Shown: positions 1,470 through 36,033 of the stretch, piece by piece
Position numbering within the stretch: the first letter of the stretch is position 1
Layout: every line of letters starts with the position of its first letter
Virus record (IMG/VR): IMGVR_UViG_3300050015_001121
Span: 1-38,251 of that record
Direction: 5' to 3' (one strand)
Length of the DNA: 38,251 nucleotides
Source of the DNA: a virus
Notes under the pieces: model-generated
The model's input: only the letters and a program-made list of their open reading frames with translations
Database searches by the model: none
Told to the model about the DNA's origin: nothing
Made by a program: the position numbers and the translations under genes

Positions 1470-1497
1470 TTGACTTTTTATTGTTTTCTGCTATACT
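1470..1497 (+). promoter_or_regulatory. Sigma-70 promoter for the lone plus-strand gene
   Basis: The -35 box TTGACT (1470-1475) and -10 box TATACT (1492-1497) are separated by 16 bp. Transcription would start near 1504, about 94 nt before the ATG at 1598. An imperfect palindrome, GCTATACTATTAGC (1490-1503), covers the -10 box and could be an operator. Confidence 0.75.
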
Positions 1498-1510
1498 ATT
1501 AGCGAAAGAG

Positions 1511-1582
1511 AAAGGATAGGTCTAGCTATCCTTCGTCCCTATTTGGTGGAGTGCCGCTAGACCGGTGCTCCACCTTATTTCT
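1511..1582 (+). promoter_or_regulatory. Two-hairpin leader with complementary loops and a terminator-like U tract
   Basis: Hairpin 1 pairs 1512-1519 with 1526-1533 (8 bp, AAGGATAG/CTATCCTT) and has loop GTCTAG (1520-1525). Hairpin 2 pairs 1545-1556 with 1563-1574 (12 bp including two G-U pairs) and has loop CTAGAC (1557-1562). The two six-base loops are exact reverse complements, extendable to 8 nt with the closing pairs, so a kissing complex or an alternative fold is possible. Hairpin 2 is followed by TTATTTCTTTT, like an intrinsic terminator, placed directly before the Shine-Dalgarno AAGGAG. The arrangement suggests attenuation control of the plus-strand gene. Confidence 0.65.
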
Positions 1583-1597
1583 TTTAAGGAGCGTGTT

Positions 1598-2116
1598 ATG
1601 AAAAAGACCGTTATTCTGGCAGTCACATTGCTCACGATATTCTGCTTCGCAGTATCTTCATATAGTGAGGAGTTTTTTAACCGCCCGGCTTCAACAGCTA
1701 TTGCAGGGGTCGCCTGTATCGCAGTTGGTCTAGTGCTAGGCAACAACTTTAGTATTCAGCTTAACAATACATCCAGCGACCTTGACCGCGCAGAGAAAGC
1801 AATGGACGATTCCATTGTTTATGGCGCACACATAGGGAACGCAGACAATGATGCCGACTACCAGAAGTACAGCATTTTAATGAACGATAGCCGGGCGGCT
1901 TCACAACGTTATTTTGAATCTGCCGGAAACCATCAACAGGAGGCGGGGCAATATCAAATTGCCTCAAATACTCTCATAGTAGCCGGTGCGCTTTTCGTGT
2001 TTCGTTCCCTCATGCTTGTTGGCGAGAAACACGACATTGCAAAGAACAAATCCGTATCAATTGCCATCAACTACAATGCCAACAAACCGGAAGTCAAAGT
2101 TAAAAAACAATTTTAA
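1598..2116 (+). CDS. Exported/membrane protein, the only plus-strand gene
   Basis: The protein has 172 residues. The start at 1598 is chosen because AAGGAG lies 7 nt upstream; an earlier in-frame codon at 1565 lies inside the leader hairpin. The N-terminus is a Sec signal peptide (MKKTVILAVTLLTIFCFAVSSYS). Two hydrophobic segments follow (about residues 33-50 and 125-147), with a Glu/Asp/Ser-rich region between them, and the C-terminus is basic and ends in Phe. The gene has its own promoter and leader and ends tail-to-tail with the minus-strand fibre gene (stops share TTAA, 2113-2116). Independent transcription against the genome direction is typical of a moron. Superinfection exclusion or host envelope modification is possible but unproven. 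Confidence 0.8.
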   Translation: MKKTVILAVTLLTIFCFAVSSYSEEFFNRPASTAIAGVACIAVGLVLGNNFSIQLNNTSSDLDRAEKAMDDSIVYGAHIGNADNDADYQKYSILMNDSRAASQRYFESAGNHQQEAGQYQIASNTLIVAGALFVFRSLMLVGEKHDIAKNKSVSIAINYNANKPEVKVKKQF

Positions 2117-2742: not shown

Positions 2743-4412
2743 TGTTTTGCTCCTTTTGGGAATTGTAATATGCTCTTTATTGCCCCGTATCGTGTTTTCC
2801 CCGTGCCTGTTATCAGCCCGTGGTAATTGGGAACTTTCCCAGATACTGCTTCGGGTTTAACCCATCCATTTTCGATACCTCTTGCAAGTAGTTGAGCGTG
2901 AAACTCTGGGTTCCCAACTTTAACTACGTTTCCGATCATTTTCACGCCGGGGATGCGACCCATTCCTATCGGTGCGACCGTCTTTTTTGTAGCTATGTCG
3001 TTTGCCAATTGCGCAAGCTTTATTTTATCGGTAAAACCGCCATAAGAGACTAGCTTTTGCGTCTCCGGATATTTTGCAAGCGTATCGTGTAGTTTTTGCA
3101 GGTTTTCTTTGAATGTTAATTGCCCCTTGTCTTTATAAGATGATGCTATTTTGCTTTCAAGTCTCATTTCACCCATTTCACGATTGAGCCGTAATGTTTT
3201 GTTAATTAAATGCTCGGCGTCCATTAAATCAACGTATTGATCTGCGGCTTTTGCTATCCGCGGGTCATTACGCTTTGCTTCTGTTAGCGCATTTGCCATT
3301 CTTGTATAAAATTTCCCTGCTAAAGTTTTTCTGCCGAGAGGTGTGACATTGTCTTCGGCTAAGTCATAAAGTATCCTAGATGCTTCTTTTGCCTTTCCGA
3401 AGGTCAGAGGTTCTACATTTTTTATTTCTTCATACCCAGTTATGGCGTTTTCGTATTCAGGTATGCTCCCTTCGTTTGCGGGGTTAAAATTCTTAGCCAC
3501 TTTAGATATAATCGGCTTTTTTGTAATCGTATCTGTTTGGGCGGTTAATCCCTCGTATATCTTTCTTGCTTTTGCAATTTGGGATTCATCGAGATATTTG
3601 GATGCTTCCCCTAATTCATGCTTCATCTTAGCCAAAGCAAGATTAGATTCGACGGGGTCACTATCCTTTATTCCTAATTTCTTATAAAATTGATTTTGTG
3701 CTTCTCTAATTGCTGGTTTGATCTGTTTCGCTTGATCTGCTGCTTCTTTCGCTATCTCTGGTGCTTGTTTTCCTATAAAATTCTGCGTATTGTCCCGAAC
3801 GAACCTATTATTTGCAATGTTCTGTATATTGGTCTTTTCAAGTGTCGTCGGTAACACTTCGGCGGTATCAATCATGTCCACTGGTTTAGGCACAACTACA
3901 GGTGCGACAGGCTTAGGATTTTTCGCCACTCTCACCGGATTTTTTAATATATCAAATCCTTTCGGTGCTTCAATATTGCCCGCTGTTTTCGAGAACATCG
4001 GCGCAGCAAGCATCGCCGCATTAACGAATTCATTTTTTAGGGGGTGATTATATAGTGTTTCCTTGATAGCTCCAACACTGGAATAGTTCGGAGCTTCTTT
4101 TACTGATTCTTCCTGTGTTCCTCTAACGATATTTTTGATAGTCGGCTCATTAATCGCCGAAGCAACGGGATTAGTGGATTTTACCGGATTGACGATATCC
4201 CGAATACTTGCACCAGTTAAAATGTCCATTCCCATTTTCCCAACGTTTGAAAGCGACTGTCCCATGCTCGGGATGATGTTTTTACCTATATCAATGACGT
4301 CGTTCTTTAGATTTTCACCAAAAGAAGGACGGACGGCAGCGGTCTTAAAATCTTCCCACGGCATACCCGTTTCCGTTTGTTTCTGCTGAAAATCAAGCCA
4401 CGGTTCGTTCAT
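2739..4412 (-). CDS. Large internal virion / DNA-ejection-type protein
   Basis: The protein has 557 residues, mostly helical and Lys/Ala/Glu-rich, with no transmembrane segment. The N-terminus has two similar short motifs (PWLDFQQKQ and PWEDFKTA), the type of repeat seen near the N-terminus of podovirus internal proteins. Long helices span roughly residues 190-440. It is the last of three consecutive helical genes between the tail-hub gene and the fibre gene, the position of gp7/gp20/gp16 (ejection proteins) in P22-like phages. The role is inferred from position, size and composition; no catalytic motif (for example a transglycosylase) is visible. Confidence 0.65.
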   Translation of the reverse strand: MNEPWLDFQQKQTETGMPWEDFKTAAVRPSFGENLKNDVIDIGKNIIPSMGQSLSNVGKMGMDILTGASIRDIVNPVKSTNPVASAINEPTIKNIVRGTQEESVKEAPNYSSVGAIKETLYNHPLKNEFVNAAMLAAPMFSKTAGNIEAPKGFDILKNPVRVAKNPKPVAPVVVPKPVDMIDTAEVLPTTLEKTNIQNIANNRFVRDNTQNFIGKQAPEIAKEAADQAKQIKPAIREAQNQFYKKLGIKDSDPVESNLALAKMKHELGEASKYLDESQIAKARKIYEGLTAQTDTITKKPIISKVAKNFNPANEGSIPEYENAITGYEEIKNVEPLTFGKAKEASRILYDLAEDNVTPLGRKTLAGKFYTRMANALTEAKRNDPRIAKAADQYVDLMDAEHLINKTLRLNREMGEMRLESKIASSYKDKGQLTFKENLQKLHDTLAKYPETQKLVSYGGFTDKIKLAQLANDIATKKTVAPIGMGRIPGVKMIGNVVKVGNPEFHAQLLARGIENGWVKPEAVSGKVPNYHGLITGTGKTRYGAIKSILQFPKGAKQ

Positions 4413-6184: not shown

Positions 6185-8007
6185 GCTGTCGCCTCTTTGT
6201 TTCTTAACGCCTCACCAACCGCCCCCCACTGTAAAAATGATATATTCCCTGATGTGCATGTCAGCGTCCACTGCGCCCACCGGCACGGAGTAGTGATATT
6301 TACAACTCGGTAATCGCTTTCCCCTTTATCGCTTGTCAAAAAGTACGTTGCATCAAAATACACGGGGTTGAATACGCCGCCATAAAGAGGGATAGTCGAC
6401 GTTATCGGATAAGCCGAATTAGAATCAAGAACAACTGAAATGTCAGTCGAAGATGTGAGGCTTGTTTTAAACCAGAAAACTAGCTTTTTGAACCACTTGA
6501 ATAGACGGCTTACTTCGAGATATGCGCTGATTAGTGTCGCCTTAACATCTTCGCCACGGTACTTTATATTCACATACTCCTGCTCAATATTTCCGTCCGA
6601 TTGCCCGTTATAGAATTTCTGCGGCGATGTTCCCATTACGGCAAAGCATCTGGGCTTAGATTCGTAGCTTGCCGACTTGATATGGTGAGTAGTCCATCCG
6701 GGAACACGAATATCAAATACGAATTTGATGTTATCGACTGCCAAATGGTACCGATAGTCAAAGAACTCGGCGGCGATGTTGGAATATGACTGTAATGCGG
6801 AACTTAGCGATCCCCTTATATCTTGTGACCAGTTTTCAGTCTGGACGTTTCCCAAAACAGTGGCAACCGGCAATTCATCCTGTCCATTGATTACTCTCAC
6901 GTCATTTAACGTAGAAACAAATACAAGACCGCCACGGAAAGCACCGGATGCCGGTACAGATACGCAAGAATATCCGCTTTTCATGCCTACGTTCGCCCGT
7001 GTCGGCTTGACGGTGTTTATGCCGACAACTGTGTCGGAAGGTTCGACAATATAAATCTGCTTACCCGTGCCTACAATGATTTTGCTAAAGTCTATTCCCA
7101 TGCCCTCAACAGGAGTATTATCGTTGCCGTAGTTCGCTATGTCTATAAAAGTAAGCACTGAAATTACTTCAATGTTTGCGTCTGTTTTGAATAACTGTGT
7201 GGGGTACTTACCAACCTTCGTCGCAAATAAACTTTGGTTAGCCACTGCAAGAAAATGCGGCTTCGGTAATTCGTTTATGCCTGTTGCCGGTATAGTGGTG
7301 CTAAGTGAACCGTCTGCAATGTTGTCTTGATATGTTTGTGTAGTATTGTCGGCAATCGTTGTAAGAAGTTTGAGTGTTGATCCACCGGCAACAGTTCGAT
7401 AAATATTTCTCGACAAAGTACCGTCGTACCCAAAAGGAAGCGTCAAATCTATTTTCTTGCTGGTCACAGTGATCGTATTGCTTACGCTACCCATTACTTC
7501 CTCGCCAGCGGCGGTGACGTAGGTCATGGCGTAGTAATATGCGCCGCTCGGATTACCTGACGCGGCGTTAGCAACTGCCGCCGGTGCGCCCATTTCGGCA
7601 ACTACGCCAAGTGAACCATAGTAGACGTTGACATAGTTTGAACCGTTGGCAATAAACAATTTATCATTGAACGCTACGACGGACACGCGCCCGGCGGTAA
7701 GCCCTGATTTAACTAATACCTCTGTGCCGAGAGCCGTCTTGTAAATGCTGCCATTTGTGAACCCTATCTGCTGCGTCTGCAATACGTTGTTCGTATCAAG
7801 GAAACGGTACTCGAAAAGACCGTCGATTGAGTGCGTCCCTATAGTGTTTATCTGGTCAGGCATAAGTATTACGTCAACGCCCGGAAGCCCCGTATTAGGG
7901 AAATTCCAGTTTTCCGCTTTCGTGAAATACTCCGGCGGCGTCTGTTTAGGGTCTGTGTCGTCTTTTAGACCAGAGAACTTTGATATGAGTGATTCAGTGT
8001 CAGCCAT
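6181..8007 (-). CDS. Tail hub / portal-stabilising protein (gp10-like)
   Basis: The protein has 608 residues, is beta-rich and long, and directly follows the gp4-like connector gene, the place of the P22 gp10 plug/hub (or T7-like nozzle). Repeated strand motifs in residues ~50-110 and ~280-440 suggest a beta-propeller core (LFIANGSNYVNVYYG, LFATKVGKYPTQLF, LVFVSTLNDVRVING). Residues ~150-235 (YYYAMTYVTAAGEEV to YQDNIADGSL) are an Ig/FN3-like insert common in phage appendages. The C-terminal ~100 residues are a second beta domain. The start overlaps the previous stop by one base (TAATG type). Function is assigned by position and fold impression only. Confidence 0.65.
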   Translation of the reverse strand: MADTESLISKFSGLKDDTDPKQTPPEYFTKAENWNFPNTGLPGVDVILMPDQINTIGTHSIDGLFEYRFLDTNNVLQTQQIGFTNGSIYKTALGTEVLVKSGLTAGRVSVVAFNDKLFIANGSNYVNVYYGSLGVVAEMGAPAAVANAASGNPSGAYYYAMTYVTAAGEEVMGSVSNTITVTSKKIDLTLPFGYDGTLSRNIYRTVAGGSTLKLLTTIADNTTQTYQDNIADGSLSTTIPATGINELPKPHFLAVANQSLFATKVGKYPTQLFKTDANIEVISVLTFIDIANYGNDNTPVEGMGIDFSKIIVGTGKQIYIVEPSDTVVGINTVKPTRANVGMKSGYSCVSVPASGAFRGGLVFVSTLNDVRVINGQDELPVATVLGNVQTENWSQDIRGSLSSALQSYSNIAAEFFDYRYHLAVDNIKFVFDIRVPGWTTHHIKSASYESKPRCFAVMGTSPQKFYNGQSDGNIEQEYVNIKYRGEDVKATLISAYLEVSRLFKWFKKLVFWFKTSLTSSTDISVVLDSNSAYPITSTIPLYGGVFNPVYFDATYFLTSDKGESDYRVVNITTPCRWAQWTLTCTSGNISFLQWGAVGEALRNKEATA

Positions 8008-8948
8008 TAGTACCTATTCCCTGAAAACGGTATGCCAGATTCGCTCTGGTACGGTTCTCGGACATTTACACCTGACCGCATTTTGTTGTATCCTTTTCCG
8101 ATATCAAGTTTATACTGTTCAAATAGAGCGTCACCGTCGATTTTGTAAGCGACAGCACGAGACGGGTCAATTTTGATAAGCAGGTTATAAGCCACGACGT
8201 CGCAAAGTCCCTCGATATGGTCGTCAACGATTTCAAGTTCTGCGGAAAGTTGCGGAGCTGTCGGGCTATCGGTAATCGTTAAAGGCACAGGAAGACGTGA
8301 GTAGTTTATGATTAGATTGTTTTCGTTTACTGAATCGTTTGTGGAGTGTGTTGCTGCCGTAGTAAGTTCAAGGCCACGAACGCAGCCATAAAAATGAGTA
8401 GCGTCCCTGTATTCGTAGAGTATCTTTTCACTGCCAATCGTGATACGGCCGCCAGTGGTTACAAATGAGGCAGTAGACGTAACGGGGATGGTAGTATCTA
8501 CGGCACTTATACCCGAAGTTAAAGTAGTGATAGCGTAATTAGTTCCCGGCATCGGATAAAGGAAAAGACGCTGTTTGTTTATCTCATTCAATACCATGAG
8601 CCATGAGGATATGCCTTTAATGGGTGACGTTCTAAAGTTCTGCACAACATCTCTCTGGCCCCTGATGTCGATAGGATTAGCCCAGCCACGAACGATGACG
8701 GTAGCGAATTTGTACGCTAACGAGCGCAAGGCGTATTGCGGAGCATCTAGAAATTGAGTATTGCTATCGACTGAAACAGAATAGAAATCCTGTATGCCCT
8801 TTGTCGTTATAGCGTACTTGATCGACTGTGCGTTCAGCTCGTACAGGATATTGGACGTAGTAACCAAAGGATTTACTGCCTTTGAATTAATATCGTCCAT
8901 TGAACCTATCTTGAACTTTATTCTATTTAAAACTGAGCTCAAGTCCAT
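8007..8948 (-). CDS. Head-to-tail adaptor (P22 gp4-like) with an inserted beta domain
   Basis: The protein has 313 residues. The helical N-terminal part (~1-130) and C-terminal part (~235-313) resemble gp4-type connector proteins that bind below the portal. The C-terminal part includes IEGLCDVVAYNLLIKIDPSRA, then a long helix and a flexible tail. Between them, residues ~140-205 form a distinct beta module: TIPVTSTASF, then ITIGSEKILYEY, then GCVRGLELTTAATHS. This module is widespread in phage tail/head proteins, with the signature SEKI-Y and G-C-RG-x-x-x-TTAA-x-HS. The start codon overlaps the HNH gene stop by one base. Confidence 0.65.
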   Translation of the reverse strand: MDLSSVLNRIKFKIGSMDDINSKAVNPLVTTSNILYELNAQSIKYAITTKGIQDFYSVSVDSNTQFLDAPQYALRSLAYKFATVIVRGWANPIDIRGQRDVVQNFRTSPIKGISSWLMVLNEINKQRLFLYPMPGTNYAITTLTSGISAVDTTIPVTSTASFVTTGGRITIGSEKILYEYRDATHFYGCVRGLELTTAATHSTNDSVNENNLIINYSRLPVPLTITDSPTAPQLSAELEIVDDHIEGLCDVVAYNLLIKIDPSRAVAYKIDGDALFEQYKLDIGKGYNKMRSGVNVREPYQSESGIPFSGNRY

Positions 8949-9577
8949 TATTTTTTACCCCACGTTTCAATCATATGGCAATCTTTACACATTGTTACTC
9001 CATTAGTAATTTCGCAGGACAATTCTGGGAATTTTGATAACCTTTTTATATGATGGGCATGGAGATACCCTCCGACCTTACCACATACGGAGCAAGTATA
9101 ATTATCTCGCACAAACACAGTTTTACGCCATATGGAATACTCAATGCTATTGCGCATCTGCTTATTTATCGGCGTAATACCACCTTTCCAAAAATGACTC
9201 TTTTCCCCACGATGTGCTTTTGATATTTTCAATCTTGATTCTATATTCATATTCTTTGAAGCTTCTGATATTTTTTTCTTAGCTTCGGCTGTATGATGGA
9301 ATATGCCTTTTACGCCTTTGCTGTGAGATGCCATGCCTATTGACGCATTTGTTTTGCATTTCATACAACAATATTTTCTATTTTTATAGTATTTTGATTC
9401 CGTTACCGTGAACTGCTTATTGCAAAATCCACAAATTAATATTTTATCTGCCATCTTTCTATGGCTTTTTCTTCCCTTGTGCCCTATACTAATTTTCAAG
9501 CGTGTTTCAGCAGAATGTGTTTTCCCCGACATTCCCTGATTTGGATGATGTTTATAAACACCTATCGGCATTTTCAT
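8948..9577 (-). CDS. HNH homing endonuclease with NUMOD3-type repeats
   Basis: The protein has 209 residues. It carries three copies of the NUMOD3-like DNA-binding motif (about residues 17-38, 95-110 and 113-134, e.g. SAETRLKISIGHKG), a CxxC/CxxxC zinc knuckle (ICGFCNKQF ... YCCMKC, ~47-77), and a C-terminal HNH nuclease at ~150-205. The nuclease has CSVC, the histidines of LHAHHIKRL, the Asn of EITNGV and the CKDCH knuckle. It would cut target DNA and promote its own spread. It is inserted between the capsid-block terminator and the connector gene, with its Shine-Dalgarno in the terminator's trailing sequence. Confidence 0.9.
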   Translation of the reverse strand: MKMPIGVYKHHPNQGMSGKTHSAETRLKISIGHKGRKSHRKMADKILICGFCNKQFTVTESKYYKNRKYCCMKCKTNASIGMASHSKGVKGIFHHTAEAKKKISEASKNMNIESRLKISKAHRGEKSHFWKGGITPINKQMRNSIEYSIWRKTVFVRDNYTCSVCGKVGGYLHAHHIKRLSKFPELSCEITNGVTMCKDCHMIETWGKK

Positions 9578-9580
9578 TCC

Positions 9581-9642
9581 TTAAAAAATAAGGCGGGGAA
9601 CATCAGGGAGACGTAAACGTTCCCCGCCCATTTTATTTTTTA
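9581..9642. terminator. Bidirectional intrinsic terminator after the capsid block
   Basis: A 10-bp GC stem pairs 9592-9601 (GGCGGGGAAC) with 9619-9628 (GTTCCCCGCC). It is flanked outside by complementary A/T arms, TTAAAAAATAA (9581-9591) and TTATTTTTTAA. On either strand the stem is followed by a T-rich run. On the minus strand it follows the stop of the small head gene at 9640 and should lower transcription into the HNH and tail genes. On the plus strand it would stop antisense transcripts arriving from the promoter at 1470. Confidence 0.85.
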
Positions 9643-32958: not shown

Positions 32959-33129
32959 TTAAAATAAATTAAAATCCCGTGTAACGCCGTAAACATAAAC
33001 CGTCGCAAGCCATATCAGAGCGATTATAATTCCAGTGCCGTAGAGCCAATGGGCTTTGTTCGTTTTTTCCTTCGGTGAGTATGTGCTTGTTATCGGCACG
33101 CCTTCGCTACCGAATCGAGGGGTGTTCAC
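32959..33129 (-). CDS. Small single-pass membrane protein (GTG start)
   Basis: The protein has 56 residues from the GTG at 33129, which overlaps the previous stop (GTGA) and follows GGAGGTG. It begins MNTPRFGSEGVPITSTYSPK with GTG read as Met, followed by one transmembrane helix (TGIIIALIWLATVYVYGV, ~33-50) and a short tail. It is an early membrane protein and could be an exclusion or host-takeover factor. Confidence 0.65.
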   Translation of the reverse strand: MNTPRFGSEGVPITSTYSPKEKTNKAHWLYGTGIIIALIWLATVYVYGVTRDFNLF

Positions 33130-33377
33130 TTTAGCACCTCCGTATTCAAAATACCCAACGCCGTTTGATATGCCTCTCTCAAAAACTGGCTCTGGCAAGC
33201 CAAGTCGGAACATCTCTGAAATTCGGAGTAAGTTAGTTCATCCTTCCACATTATTGCCTCCTGCTCGGCGTTTATACGGTTCCGTTCGACCTTTAGGGCT
33301 TCGATCTCTTTGTAGTTGCCTACGATTGTTTGACCGTGGGCGATCGCTTGCTCGGTGCTTGCAAATGTGGGTATCAT
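33126..33377 (-). CDS. First gene of the early operon, helical protein
   Basis: The protein has 83 residues from the ATG at 33377 (GGAGG 5 nt upstream). It is helical and charged (STEQAIAHGQTIVGNYKEIEALKVERNRINAEQEAIMWKDELTYSEFQRCSDLA). It starts right after the intrinsic terminator of the leader, so it is expressed only if transcription passes that terminator. It is not recognised. Confidence 0.65.
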   Translation of the reverse strand: MIPTFASTEQAIAHGQTIVGNYKEIEALKVERNRINAEQEAIMWKDELTYSEFQRCSDLACQSQFLREAYQTALGILNTEVLK

Positions 33378-33390
33378 GGTTACCTCCATT

Positions 33391-33435
33391 AAATAAAAAT
33401 CCGGGAAAACTGCCTTTCGGCAATCCCCCCGGATT
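33391..33435 (-). terminator. Intrinsic terminator between leader and early operon
   Basis: AATCCGGG pairs with CCCGGATT (33428-33435 with 33398-33405). An inner stem TGCC/GGCA closed by a GAAA tetraloop (minus strand) continues the hairpin, followed by TTTTTATTT. It sits 14 bp before the first early gene start at 33377. Passing it would need antitermination or readthrough. Confidence 0.85.
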
Positions 33436-33460
33436 GTAAAATAGTACGGCGAAGATGCTG

Positions 33461-33601
33461 TTAGATCGTTCCCGATGCCAACAACAGAGCTTCGCCGCTT
33501 AGTACGGAAAGGATGCCCGCCCTGCGAGAGGAAAGCACAACCGTACCAGTTAAAAATGACTTCGTGATGTTTGATTTTTGGATTCGGAGTTCGCAGGGCA
33601 T
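33461..33601 (-). CDS. Possible 46-codon leader peptide
   Basis: The ATG at 33601 has AAGGAAAA upstream and opens 46 codons (start MPCELRIQKSNITKSF). The codons overlap all stems of the leader RNA, so constraints from folding are strong, and a second frame is also open across the same stretch. It could be a regulatory leader peptide whose translation decides the fold, or be untranslated. I favour a structural RNA, with coding uncertain. Confidence 0.35.
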   Translation of the reverse strand: MPCELRIQKSNITKSFLTGTVVLSSRRAGILSVLSGEALLLASGTI

Positions 33602-33631
33602 TTTGTTTTCCTTTTCCTTTGTTACACTACA

Positions 33632-33660
33632 AATATAGCATACTGCATTTTGTTTGTCAA
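33632..33660 (-). promoter_or_regulatory. Strong sigma-70 early promoter
   Basis: The -35 box TTGACA (33655-33660) and -10 box TATATT (33632-33637) are on the minus strand with 17-bp spacing. It is the best promoter match in the window. Transcription would start near 33625 and run into the structured leader and early operon. Confidence 0.85.
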
Positions 33661-33691: not shown

Positions 33692-35905
33692 TTAGGCATT
33701 TTCTGTGACGGAAAATAAGTCTTGCTCTGTCGCTGATTCTTCGGCACGTTTTAAATTATTTAAGTTACATTTAAAATATGATTCCTTAATTTCCATTCCG
33801 ATATATCTACGTTTCATCTTAATTGCCTGATATCCTTCACTGCCTATGCCACCGAATGGGCTTAAAACAATATCATTAGGATTAGTCCAGAGATTCAATG
33901 CCCGTTCAATAATCTGTAACTGCAAGGGGCAGATATGCCGCTCGTCATTGTTTTCCCGCGCCGATTCCTTTTGCAGTGTGTCTGACGGGTTAATGTCCAT
34001 CCATACCGGAGAGGCGTAATTCTGCCATAGATCAACTGGGAATGATTCGTTGGTATGCGTTACTCTTTCGGGATTGTCACCTTTTTTGCGCATAACAACT
34101 AGATAATCTGGTATGCCTTGTCTACTCATGCAACTATCTTTTTTAATCTGCTTGTGCAACAATCCCAGAGCTTTTGTCCTTTGCATGGCGGTCACTGGGT
34201 CTTTCCAAATACAAACTTCTGAATGAAATATAAAACCTTCATCGACAAACATTTTTATCAAGTCGCCTCTAAAGTCTCGTATGCCTATAATGCCGTCTCG
34301 TTCTTTACTTGTCGGCAGGTTCATGCAGTGGAAAGCCACTAAACGCCCCGGCATAATTACCCGATGAAGTTCTTCTACAAGATACTTAAAATGATCGTAA
34401 AATTCCCCATTAGTGCGGCAATTCCCCATATCACGTTCCGAGTTTGTGTATGTATATAAAGATGCAAATGGCGGGCTGAAAATTGAAAAATGGATAGAAT
34501 TGTCTTTAATCTTCTTTATTGATTCAACACAATCTCCTAAATACAGATCAAACATTTTGGAATGTTCGTGCCGTTCCTGATAGTTAAATTCATTTCTTGA
34601 TGTACTGTGTATCTCATTTTTAGTCAGATTCTTAGTGTGTTCTACCATGTTTTCAATCATATTTTGTGCCATCCTTTCTTTATTTTTTATATTCTTTAAA
34701 ACAGATGCTTCAGCTTCGCTTATAATGATATGGACATTGACTTCTTTTTTCTGTCCGAATCTCCAACATCTGCGTATTGCCTGATAAAACTGTTCATAAC
34801 TATCGGATAATCCCACAAAAACCATGTTATGGCACTGCTGAAAATTCAATCCGTAGCCAAACATCGACGGCTTACTGATAAGAAATTTTATCTTGCCTGA
34901 TGAAAAATCTATTGCAGAGTTTTCTTTATGTTCCGGAGTGTCTGCACCTTTTACCTCGACTGCACCGTCAATAGATTTTTTTAACAGGTCACTTTCATTG
35001 TTAAAATTGCACCATATAAGTGTCTGCTCATTATTAAGCAGTTCATAGCATTCCGATACTCTTTCATTTATGCTATCCCGTCTCGCTGTCCTTCTTTCTT
35101 CAAGCGTATTTGCAATCATTGGAATTAAATATTCACCAGTAGTTTTCGATTCAACTATATGTTCTATAATCTTTAGTTTTGGCAATGCAAAACCTTCATC
35201 TTTGTATCCGAGATCAGATGGCTTGCGCAAAACTACCGCCCAAGTAGACATCCATTCCCAGTATTTTGATTCAGCATGCCCCTTCAATCTCCATTTCGAT
35301 GTTTCTTCCATGTCGTGGGTAAAGAATGTTGATAGCATTTCCGTACGCTTAAGAACTCCGAGAAATTCGGCATGATTTCCTAATTCCATATAATCGTTAG
35401 GGGCAGGCGTAGCCGTGCAAGCTAATCGATATGGCGTTTTCCCGAACACTTCGATTATATAGTTCCGGAGCTTCCCTGAATAACTTTTCAAAATGCTGCT
35501 TTCATCAAGAACTATGCCAGAAAAAACACTTATATCAAAATGCTCCAATATCTCATAGTTAGTGATGTTTATACCGTCAGTCACTTCGTCCTGCGTACGG
35601 CACACATTAACATCAATATTGAATTTTTTACCTTCTCTCTGCGTTTGCTTGCTGACTGCCAAAGGGGCAAGTATTAAAATAGGCTTTTTAGTGCTTATAT
35701 TTACTTGCCTTGCCCATTCTAACTGCATCGGAGTCTTGCCCATTCCACAATCCGCAAAAATCGCCGCCCGCCCTTTTTTTAATGACCATTTTACAATGTC
35801 TTTCTGAAAATCAAATAGCATGGGATTTAATTCTTCATGTTTTACATCAAAACCACTACTACTATTAACTATCCGCTTTGCTTCTATAAACTCTTTATAC
35901 TCCAC
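33692..35905 (-). CDS. SNF2-like helicase fused to a DNA amino-methyltransferase
   Basis: The protein has 737 residues with a GTG start behind AGGAGG. The N-terminal half is a superfamily 2 helicase: Walker A ADCGMGKT (51-58), DExx box LDESS (133-137), motif III CTATPAPND (163-171), and a C-terminal helicase lobe ending in the RCWRFGQ-type motif VI. The C-terminal ~290 residues form a beta-group methyltransferase: catalytic SPPF (~477-480) comes before the SAM motif SPFGGIGSEG (~680-690). It would methylate adenine-N6 or cytosine-N4, perhaps while moving along DNA. It probably protects phage DNA or alters early transcription. It has its own promoter and folded leader. Confidence 0.85.
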   Translation of the reverse strand: MEYKEFIEAKRIVNSSSGFDVKHEELNPMLFDFQKDIVKWSLKKGRAAIFADCGMGKTPMQLEWARQVNISTKKPILILAPLAVSKQTQREGKKFNIDVNVCRTQDEVTDGINITNYEILEHFDISVFSGIVLDESSILKSYSGKLRNYIIEVFGKTPYRLACTATPAPNDYMELGNHAEFLGVLKRTEMLSTFFTHDMEETSKWRLKGHAESKYWEWMSTWAVVLRKPSDLGYKDEGFALPKLKIIEHIVESKTTGEYLIPMIANTLEERRTARRDSINERVSECYELLNNEQTLIWCNFNNESDLLKKSIDGAVEVKGADTPEHKENSAIDFSSGKIKFLISKPSMFGYGLNFQQCHNMVFVGLSDSYEQFYQAIRRCWRFGQKKEVNVHIIISEAEASVLKNIKNKERMAQNMIENMVEHTKNLTKNEIHSTSRNEFNYQERHEHSKMFDLYLGDCVESIKKIKDNSIHFSIFSPPFASLYTYTNSERDMGNCRTNGEFYDHFKYLVEELHRVIMPGRLVAFHCMNLPTSKERDGIIGIRDFRGDLIKMFVDEGFIFHSEVCIWKDPVTAMQRTKALGLLHKQIKKDSCMSRQGIPDYLVVMRKKGDNPERVTHTNESFPVDLWQNYASPVWMDINPSDTLQKESARENNDERHICPLQLQIIERALNLWTNPNDIVLSPFGGIGSEGYQAIKMKRRYIGMEIKESYFKCNLNNLKRAEESATEQDLFSVTENA

Positions 35906-35998
35906 AATAACCTCCTATAAAAATATAGCCCCACCGATGATTGAGGCATCGGCAGGGCAAAAATAAAAGAACGCCTCAATCGCTCTTGTGTGTTCCAT
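35906..35998 (-). promoter_or_regulatory. Folded 5' leader of the helicase-methyltransferase gene
   Basis: On the minus strand GATTGAGGC (35981-35973) can pair with GCCTCAATC (35947-35939), 9 bp. A local hairpin CCGATG/CATCGG has the same CCTCAAT in its loop, so the two folds exclude each other or form a pseudoknot. A small GTGT/ACAC hairpin lies at the 5' end. The switch ends ~20 nt before the AGGAGG, suggesting control of translation or early termination. Confidence 0.55.
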
Positions 35999-36004
35999 AC
36001 ACTA

Positions 36005-36033
36005 AGTATAATTTATCTGTTATAAAAAGTCAA
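36005..36033 (-). promoter_or_regulatory. Sigma-70 promoter of the helicase-methyltransferase gene
   Basis: On the minus strand TTGACT (36028-36033) and TATACT (36005-36010) are 17 bp apart. The boxes are identical to those of the plus-strand promoter at 1470. The start would be near 35998. The -35 overlaps the stop of the small gene upstream. Confidence 0.8.

Follow-up and report, generated by a model that had tools for sequence, protein, structure and literature searches.

In phage HK022, the put RNA acts on the zinc-binding domain of the RNA polymerase β′ subunit without protein factors; in Bacillus, the eps-associated RNA (EAR) is pseudoknotted and linked to terminator readthrough; and in ColE1, RNA I and RNA II form kissing loops between two molecules. 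The HK022 put RNAs are about 70 nt long and have two stems (PMC9378689), and the LoaP-controlled dfn leader of B. velezensis carries an intrinsic terminator before its first gene and a hairpin, a small element of UNCG type, to which LoaP binds (PMC12691694). The RNA considered here, encoded by the minus strand of a virus record of 38,251 bases (the window, meaning the whole stretch of DNA analysed), resembles each of these in part. As in the dfn leader, a promoter, upstream hairpin(s) and a terminator stand in the 5′ leader, with a gene that follows after readthrough; unlike dfn, it combines a pseudoknot with a GGAA-looped hairpin of ~22 bp, its terminator reaches the Shine-Dalgarno (SD) sequence, and none of the phage proteins scanned was recognised as LoaP- or NusG-like. 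Like put, it is a phage stem-loop RNA lying directly downstream of an early promoter, but it is pseudoknotted, terminator-ended and ~235 nt long. With EAR it shares the character of a pseudoknotted leader-type RNA, a likeness of general type and not of residue-by-residue comparison, whereas it has no match in Rfam. What resembles ColE1 is a pair of hairpins with complementary 7-nt loops, found in two further leaders described below (W1 and G1b); in contrast to RNA I and RNA II, the hairpins neighbour each other in one leader, and the second is usually a terminator.

The source is a divergent virus of bacteria, with the portal, large terminase, major head protein and internal virion protein of a tailed phage, probably a podovirus. 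Nearly all of its genes are on the minus strand, and those 3′ of the leader comprise small genes, a Sak4-type ATPase, a RusA-type resolvase, methyltransferases and a replication-initiation protein, so that it is their content, and not expression data, that justifies speaking of an "early operon". The nearest relative found, G001, has a large terminase 78% identical to that of this phage; structural genes are common to the two, but the early region is not. A second record, G002, has the Sak4-type gene in common (56%), and its early promoter, TTGACA-17-TATACT, leads into a short, plain leader without structure. Relatives of the major capsid and portal proteins were sought among GenBank phages, and none was found. 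An open frame runs through the joined ends of the record (38251 and 1-437), a sign that the genome may be circular or circularly permuted, although a search of the window ends for exact repeats of at least 10 bases found none.

The leader of the early operon

The elements of the locus, in the order in which they would be transcribed apart from the arms of the two interleaved helices, are as follows.

33632..33660, minus strand: sigma-70 promoter TTGACA-17-TATATT with a TG-extended −10, 11/12 matches, expected start near 33625
33391..33625, minus strand: structured leader RNA of ~235 nt, from the expected start to the end of the U-tract, with no coding signal
33591..33600, minus strand: 5′ arm of helix H1, TGCCCTGCGA, pairing with 33527-33518
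33518..33527, minus strand: 3′ arm of H1, TCGCAGGGCG, pairing with 33600-33591
33541..33548, minus strand: 5′ arm of helix H2, TGGTACGG, within the H1 loop
33500..33507, minus strand: 3′ arm of H2, CCGTACTA, crossing H1 to give an H-type pseudoknot
33446..33498, minus strand: hairpin H3 with a GGAA loop and internal loops, ~22 bp in three parts, z = −6.8
33398..33435, minus strand: intrinsic terminator with a 17-bp stem and a GAAA loop, U-tract 33397-33390, −28.1 kcal/mol
33383..33387, minus strand: Shine-Dalgarno sequence GGAGG of the first early gene, directly 3′ of the U-tract
33126..33377, minus strand: first early gene, 83 aa from ATG 33377, of no known family

A preliminary description of this DNA had reported a perfect promoter followed by a densely folded RNA with interleaved helices, a 13-bp two-part helix and a GAAA-loop terminator just before the first early gene, and this is confirmed, with amendments of detail. 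The promoter at 33660-33632 is indeed the best of the window and the only site there with 11/12 sigma-70 matches, but for that same reason it must be called near-perfect. Dense folding is borne out by the whole 235 nt (z = −6.4 to −6.6), and not one of 200 shuffles matched its stability. Removal of the terminator leaves z at −4.4, and the stability is owed mostly to two hairpins, H3 and the terminator. The two-part helix exists, but it is longer than described, being the ~22-bp, three-part H3, which gives the lowest-energy fold among the 12,732 sixty-nucleotide windows taken over both strands. By the same ranking, the terminator, present where it had been placed, comes fourth in the window.

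The interleaved helices were also recovered. H1 comprises 10 bp including one G-U, and a helix as strong arose in 2 of 1,000 dinucleotide shuffles. H2 pairs GGTACGG with CCGTACT (33547-33541 with 33507-33501) over 7 bp, or 8 with the next U-A, and the summed stacking energy of H1 and H2 was reached in only 1 of 1,000 shuffles. Once H1 is fixed, 1.8% of mononucleotide shuffles offer a crossing helix that equals H2 (p = 0.018), and by nested folding the H1/H2 stretch is ordinary (z = −0.7). The pseudoknot is less certain than the two stable hairpins.

In the terminator, the stem is followed by the U-rich tail TTTATTTAAT, and its pairs have predicted probabilities of 0.76 for the outermost and 1.0 for the inner ones. 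Since GGAGG (33387-33383) and ATG 33377 come straight after the U-tract, the listed start of the open reading frame at 33389 is probably too early, and ATG 33377 is probably the true start of the first early gene. A search of the leader folds for a competing antiterminator pairing able to melt the terminator found none; in the nascent fold, the 5′ arm of the terminator is engaged by a small local hairpin only, and H3 and the terminator fold independently of each other.

Weaker promoter-like sites are present downstream of 33391, so the operon may not rely on the promoter at 33660-33632 alone. BLASTN against phages aligned nothing but the AT-rich promoter stretch, at 76% over ~85-91 nt, with Listeria phages. 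There it stands ahead of an annotated gene, so the likeness is probably one of consensus and not of homology. A plasmid match was likewise confined to the promoter-proximal stretch, and the similar promoters in relatives by terminase are ordinary promoters 5′ of coding genes.

By sequence, the leader RNA is an orphan. No Rfam family matched it at the gathering score, and a permissive search gave chance-level matches only; no tRNA or tmRNA was found. BLAST, pattern and covariance-model searches likewise yielded no relatives, which is weak evidence because the collections may leave out close ones. Patterns built from H1, H2/H3 and H3 returned nothing, or chance matches in unrelated, often GC-rich DNA, and the single-sequence covariance model R2 recovered itself plus one chance-level match of 8.5 bits. 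Among relatives by the helicase-methyltransferase gene (80 loci, 29 of them inspected over 300 nt 3′ of the gene), no comparable promoter-RNA-terminator unit was seen. The first early gene is equally solitary, its protein (83-87 aa, depending on the start) having no match in Pfam or PHROG and the gene no relatives in viral and bacterial contigs. A type III toxin-antitoxin system was considered and rejected: with the downstream protein unmatched, no ToxN-, CptN- or TenpN-type gene was recognised, and reading of the leader region revealed no tandem RNA repeat unit.

Putative kissing-loop leaders in this phage and G001

Two further promoters of the window, and two of G001, are followed by leaders in which neighbouring hairpins carry complementary loops.

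35903..36033, minus strand: kissing leader W1, promoter TTGACT-17-TATACT at 36033-36005
35987-35967, minus strand: W1 hairpin 1, loop AUUGAGG
35958-35928, minus strand: W1 hairpin 2/terminator, loop CCUCAAU
35916-35911, minus strand: W1 SD, with GTG 35905 of the helicase-methyltransferase gene
1470..1600, plus strand: kissing leader W2, promoter TTGACT-16-TATACT at 1470-1497
1512-1533, plus strand: W2 hairpin 1, loop GUCUAG
1545-1574, plus strand: W2 hairpin 2/terminator, loop CUAGAC, U-tract 1575-1586
1586-1591, plus strand: W2 SD, with the start codon ATG 1598 of an opposite-strand gene encoding 172 aa
G001 L171 4348-4491: kissing leader G1a, promoter 4348-4377, loops GGUAAG/CUUACC, 5′ of an HNH endonuclease gene
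G001 L171 6955-7114: kissing leader G1b, promoter 6955-6983, loops AUUGCGC/GCGCAAU, 5′ of a primase-type gene

In W1, W2 and G1a, the first hairpin starts 14-27 nt after the −10 of a promoter with 10-11/12 matches, and in G1b further down. The paired loops are of 6-7 nt and perfectly complementary, their sequences differ in all four leaders, and the second hairpin is usually a clear terminator set against the SD of the next gene. By inspection, the loop complementarity ends within one base pair of the stems, an extent that suits a loop-loop contact better than a long antiterminator. G1b is the weakest case: it was spotted by eye and falls below the scan thresholds, its first hairpin is missing from the minimum-energy fold, and its second is followed only by UUAAUUUU, where W1, W2 and G1a have clear terminators. 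The ~235-nt leader itself has no kissing pair, and its tie to these leaders is one of layout.

Chance accounts poorly for such sites. When shuffled genomes were put through the same scan as the real ones, with no promoter or U-tract filter, 0.065 sites were expected in the window and 0.04 in G001 (~0.1 in total), against 2 and 1 observed, of which W2 and G1a are independent tests and W1, like G1b, is not, because the scan was designed after these two had been seen. For each leader, any such loop pair arose in 7 to 20 of 20,000 shuffles, and one with stems matching the real ones in length in none. Over 2.24 Mb of DNA the scan gave 14 entries, and all those with a U-rich tail fall in these two phages. 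Because the comparison treated the four leaders as examples of one design, without aligning them as homologues, their differing loops hint at compensation but do not amount to formal covariation. In the part of the literature covered, no description of tandem cis-kissing terminator leaders was found.

Several other sites deserve mention in their own right. The W2 gene (region 1470-2116, plus strand) encodes 172 aa with stretches that look hydrophobic by eye, a small membrane-type product without a family; it has its own promoter and, moron-like, sits between genes of the minus strand. At ~9577-9640 on the minus strand, between the head genes and the gene at 8948-9577, a long terminator-like hairpin with A/T tracts on both sides adjoins the SD AAGGA. 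With a start expected near 10143 of L171 (27143 of G001), another 11/12 promoter precedes a leader with the terminator-like hairpin AAAACTCTCAAGCGGCAGGTTACCGCGTGGGAGTTTTTTT and no kissing pair. In G002, the more distant phage, strong terminator hairpins lie directly 5′ of an SD near 6977 of L173 and near 3289 of L174 (minus strand).

Proposed attenuation and the competing explanations

The promoter, the helices, the terminator, their order and the absence of a coding signal are features of the sequence, and at that level the locus has what an intrinsic-terminator leader has: a promoter, an untranslated leader and a terminator before the first gene. Our proposal, to which we give an even chance, is that 33625-33391 (minus strand) is a non-coding structured 5′ leader of the early operon acting as a transcription attenuator. 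RNA polymerase would start at the extended −10 promoter, transcribe the pseudoknotted 5′ domain (H1/H2) and then the very stable H3, and next meet a strong terminator whose U-tract touches the SD of the first gene. A large share of transcripts would end near 33391, giving a stable RNA of ~235 nt, and the early genes would be carried by readthrough transcripts only. We infer a functional terminator, leaky or under regulation, with readthrough set by the folded 5′ domain. In favour of the proposal are the rank of the promoter, the stability of the fold and the rarity of the pseudoknot among shuffles, the position of the terminator against the SD, the lack of a coding signal and the four kissing leaders of like layout. 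Weighing against it are the failure of the searches to find a relative of the RNA, the lack of a competing antiterminator pairing in the folds, the plain early leader of G002 and the weaker promoter-like sites downstream of 33391.

The preliminary description had left the choice between an abundant small RNA and an attenuator or put-like antiterminator. Both the short RNA and the attenuator are plausible readings of a strong promoter that is followed by a folded, apparently non-coding RNA and, immediately ahead of the first gene, by a strong terminator. That the RNA is a stand-alone sRNA gene, trans-acting or protein-binding, whose terminator just ends it while the early genes are served mainly by upstream readthrough or other promoters, is somewhat unlikely. 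The unit is complete from promoter to terminator and densely structured, and the independent folding of H3 and the terminator means that no switch is needed; however, the SD and start of the next gene adjoin the U-tract, leaving no space for a promoter, and similar terminator-like leaders before other genes of this phage and of G001 favour a role in cis. Indeed, the attenuator side is strengthened by W1, W2 and G1a, and more weakly by G1b, because these place terminator-like hairpins against an SD after a strong promoter. Decidedly unlikely is a processive antiterminator of the HK022 put or EAR kind, in which the pseudoknot or H3 would bind the elongating polymerase and carry it through the terminator at 33398 and those beyond. 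The promoter-proximal position and the dense fold ahead of a terminator would suit it, as would a further terminator-like hairpin far downstream, past the major-capsid region. The likeness to put comes down to position, however, as the leader is not a ~70-nt two-stem RNA; neither Rfam nor the scanned proteins offered support, the latter including no recognisable antitermination protein or NusG/LoaP-type factor, although one could be missed because many small early proteins have no family.

Two remaining explanations give the leader some other task. A 46-codon open reading frame (ATG 33601, stop 33461) spans H1, H2 and part of H3, and as a leader peptide it could make the locus a translational attenuator, the ribosome's position in H1/H2/H3 deciding the downstream structures. 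Its ATG comes after the promoter and is preceded by purine-rich sequence, and H3 contains its stop. Against this, its codon score of 0.0006 is below the 5th percentile for the genes of this phage (0.074) and within the range of wrong frames (−0.04 ± 0.14, as opposed to 0.24 ± 0.12 for segments of those genes), and a search for relatives of the peptide found none. Leader peptides can have atypical composition; even so, we consider this explanation very improbable and treat the leader as apparently non-coding. That the RNA is linked to replication, for instance as a primer transcribed at an origin, is hardly credible: a strong promoter with a terminated structured RNA is what the origin of the lactococcal phage c2 has, but here the replication-initiation gene is 13 kb away and the cumulative GC skew takes no turn at the leader.

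Possible consequences for control of phage gene expression

With attenuation as the preferred reading, the recurrence of the promoter-hairpins-SD-gene layout, at two more promoters here and two in G001, makes structured leaders look like a design habit of the lineage, and suggests that the lineage may meter transcription in its leaders. Since a folded leader or kissing stop hairpins follow these strong promoters, RNA folding probably sets the output of each gene. The ~235-nt RNA is best read as the largest structured leader of the lineage, an attenuator that would also release a short RNA. Beyond this, we tentatively propose, as something possible rather than probable, an undescribed family of tandem cis-kissing-loop terminator leaders that lie after strong promoters and tune readthrough gene by gene through private loop codes, with a larger, pseudoknotted version gating the early operon. 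Of the two findings, the kissing leaders lend themselves better to testing, and they place the orphan early RNA in a pattern, so that it is not a lone curiosity. If the proposal is true, expression at several strong promoters of these phages would be set after initiation, by the folding of the leader RNA, and the kissing leaders would be a compact design, of less than 130 nt, with a private loop pair for each gene.
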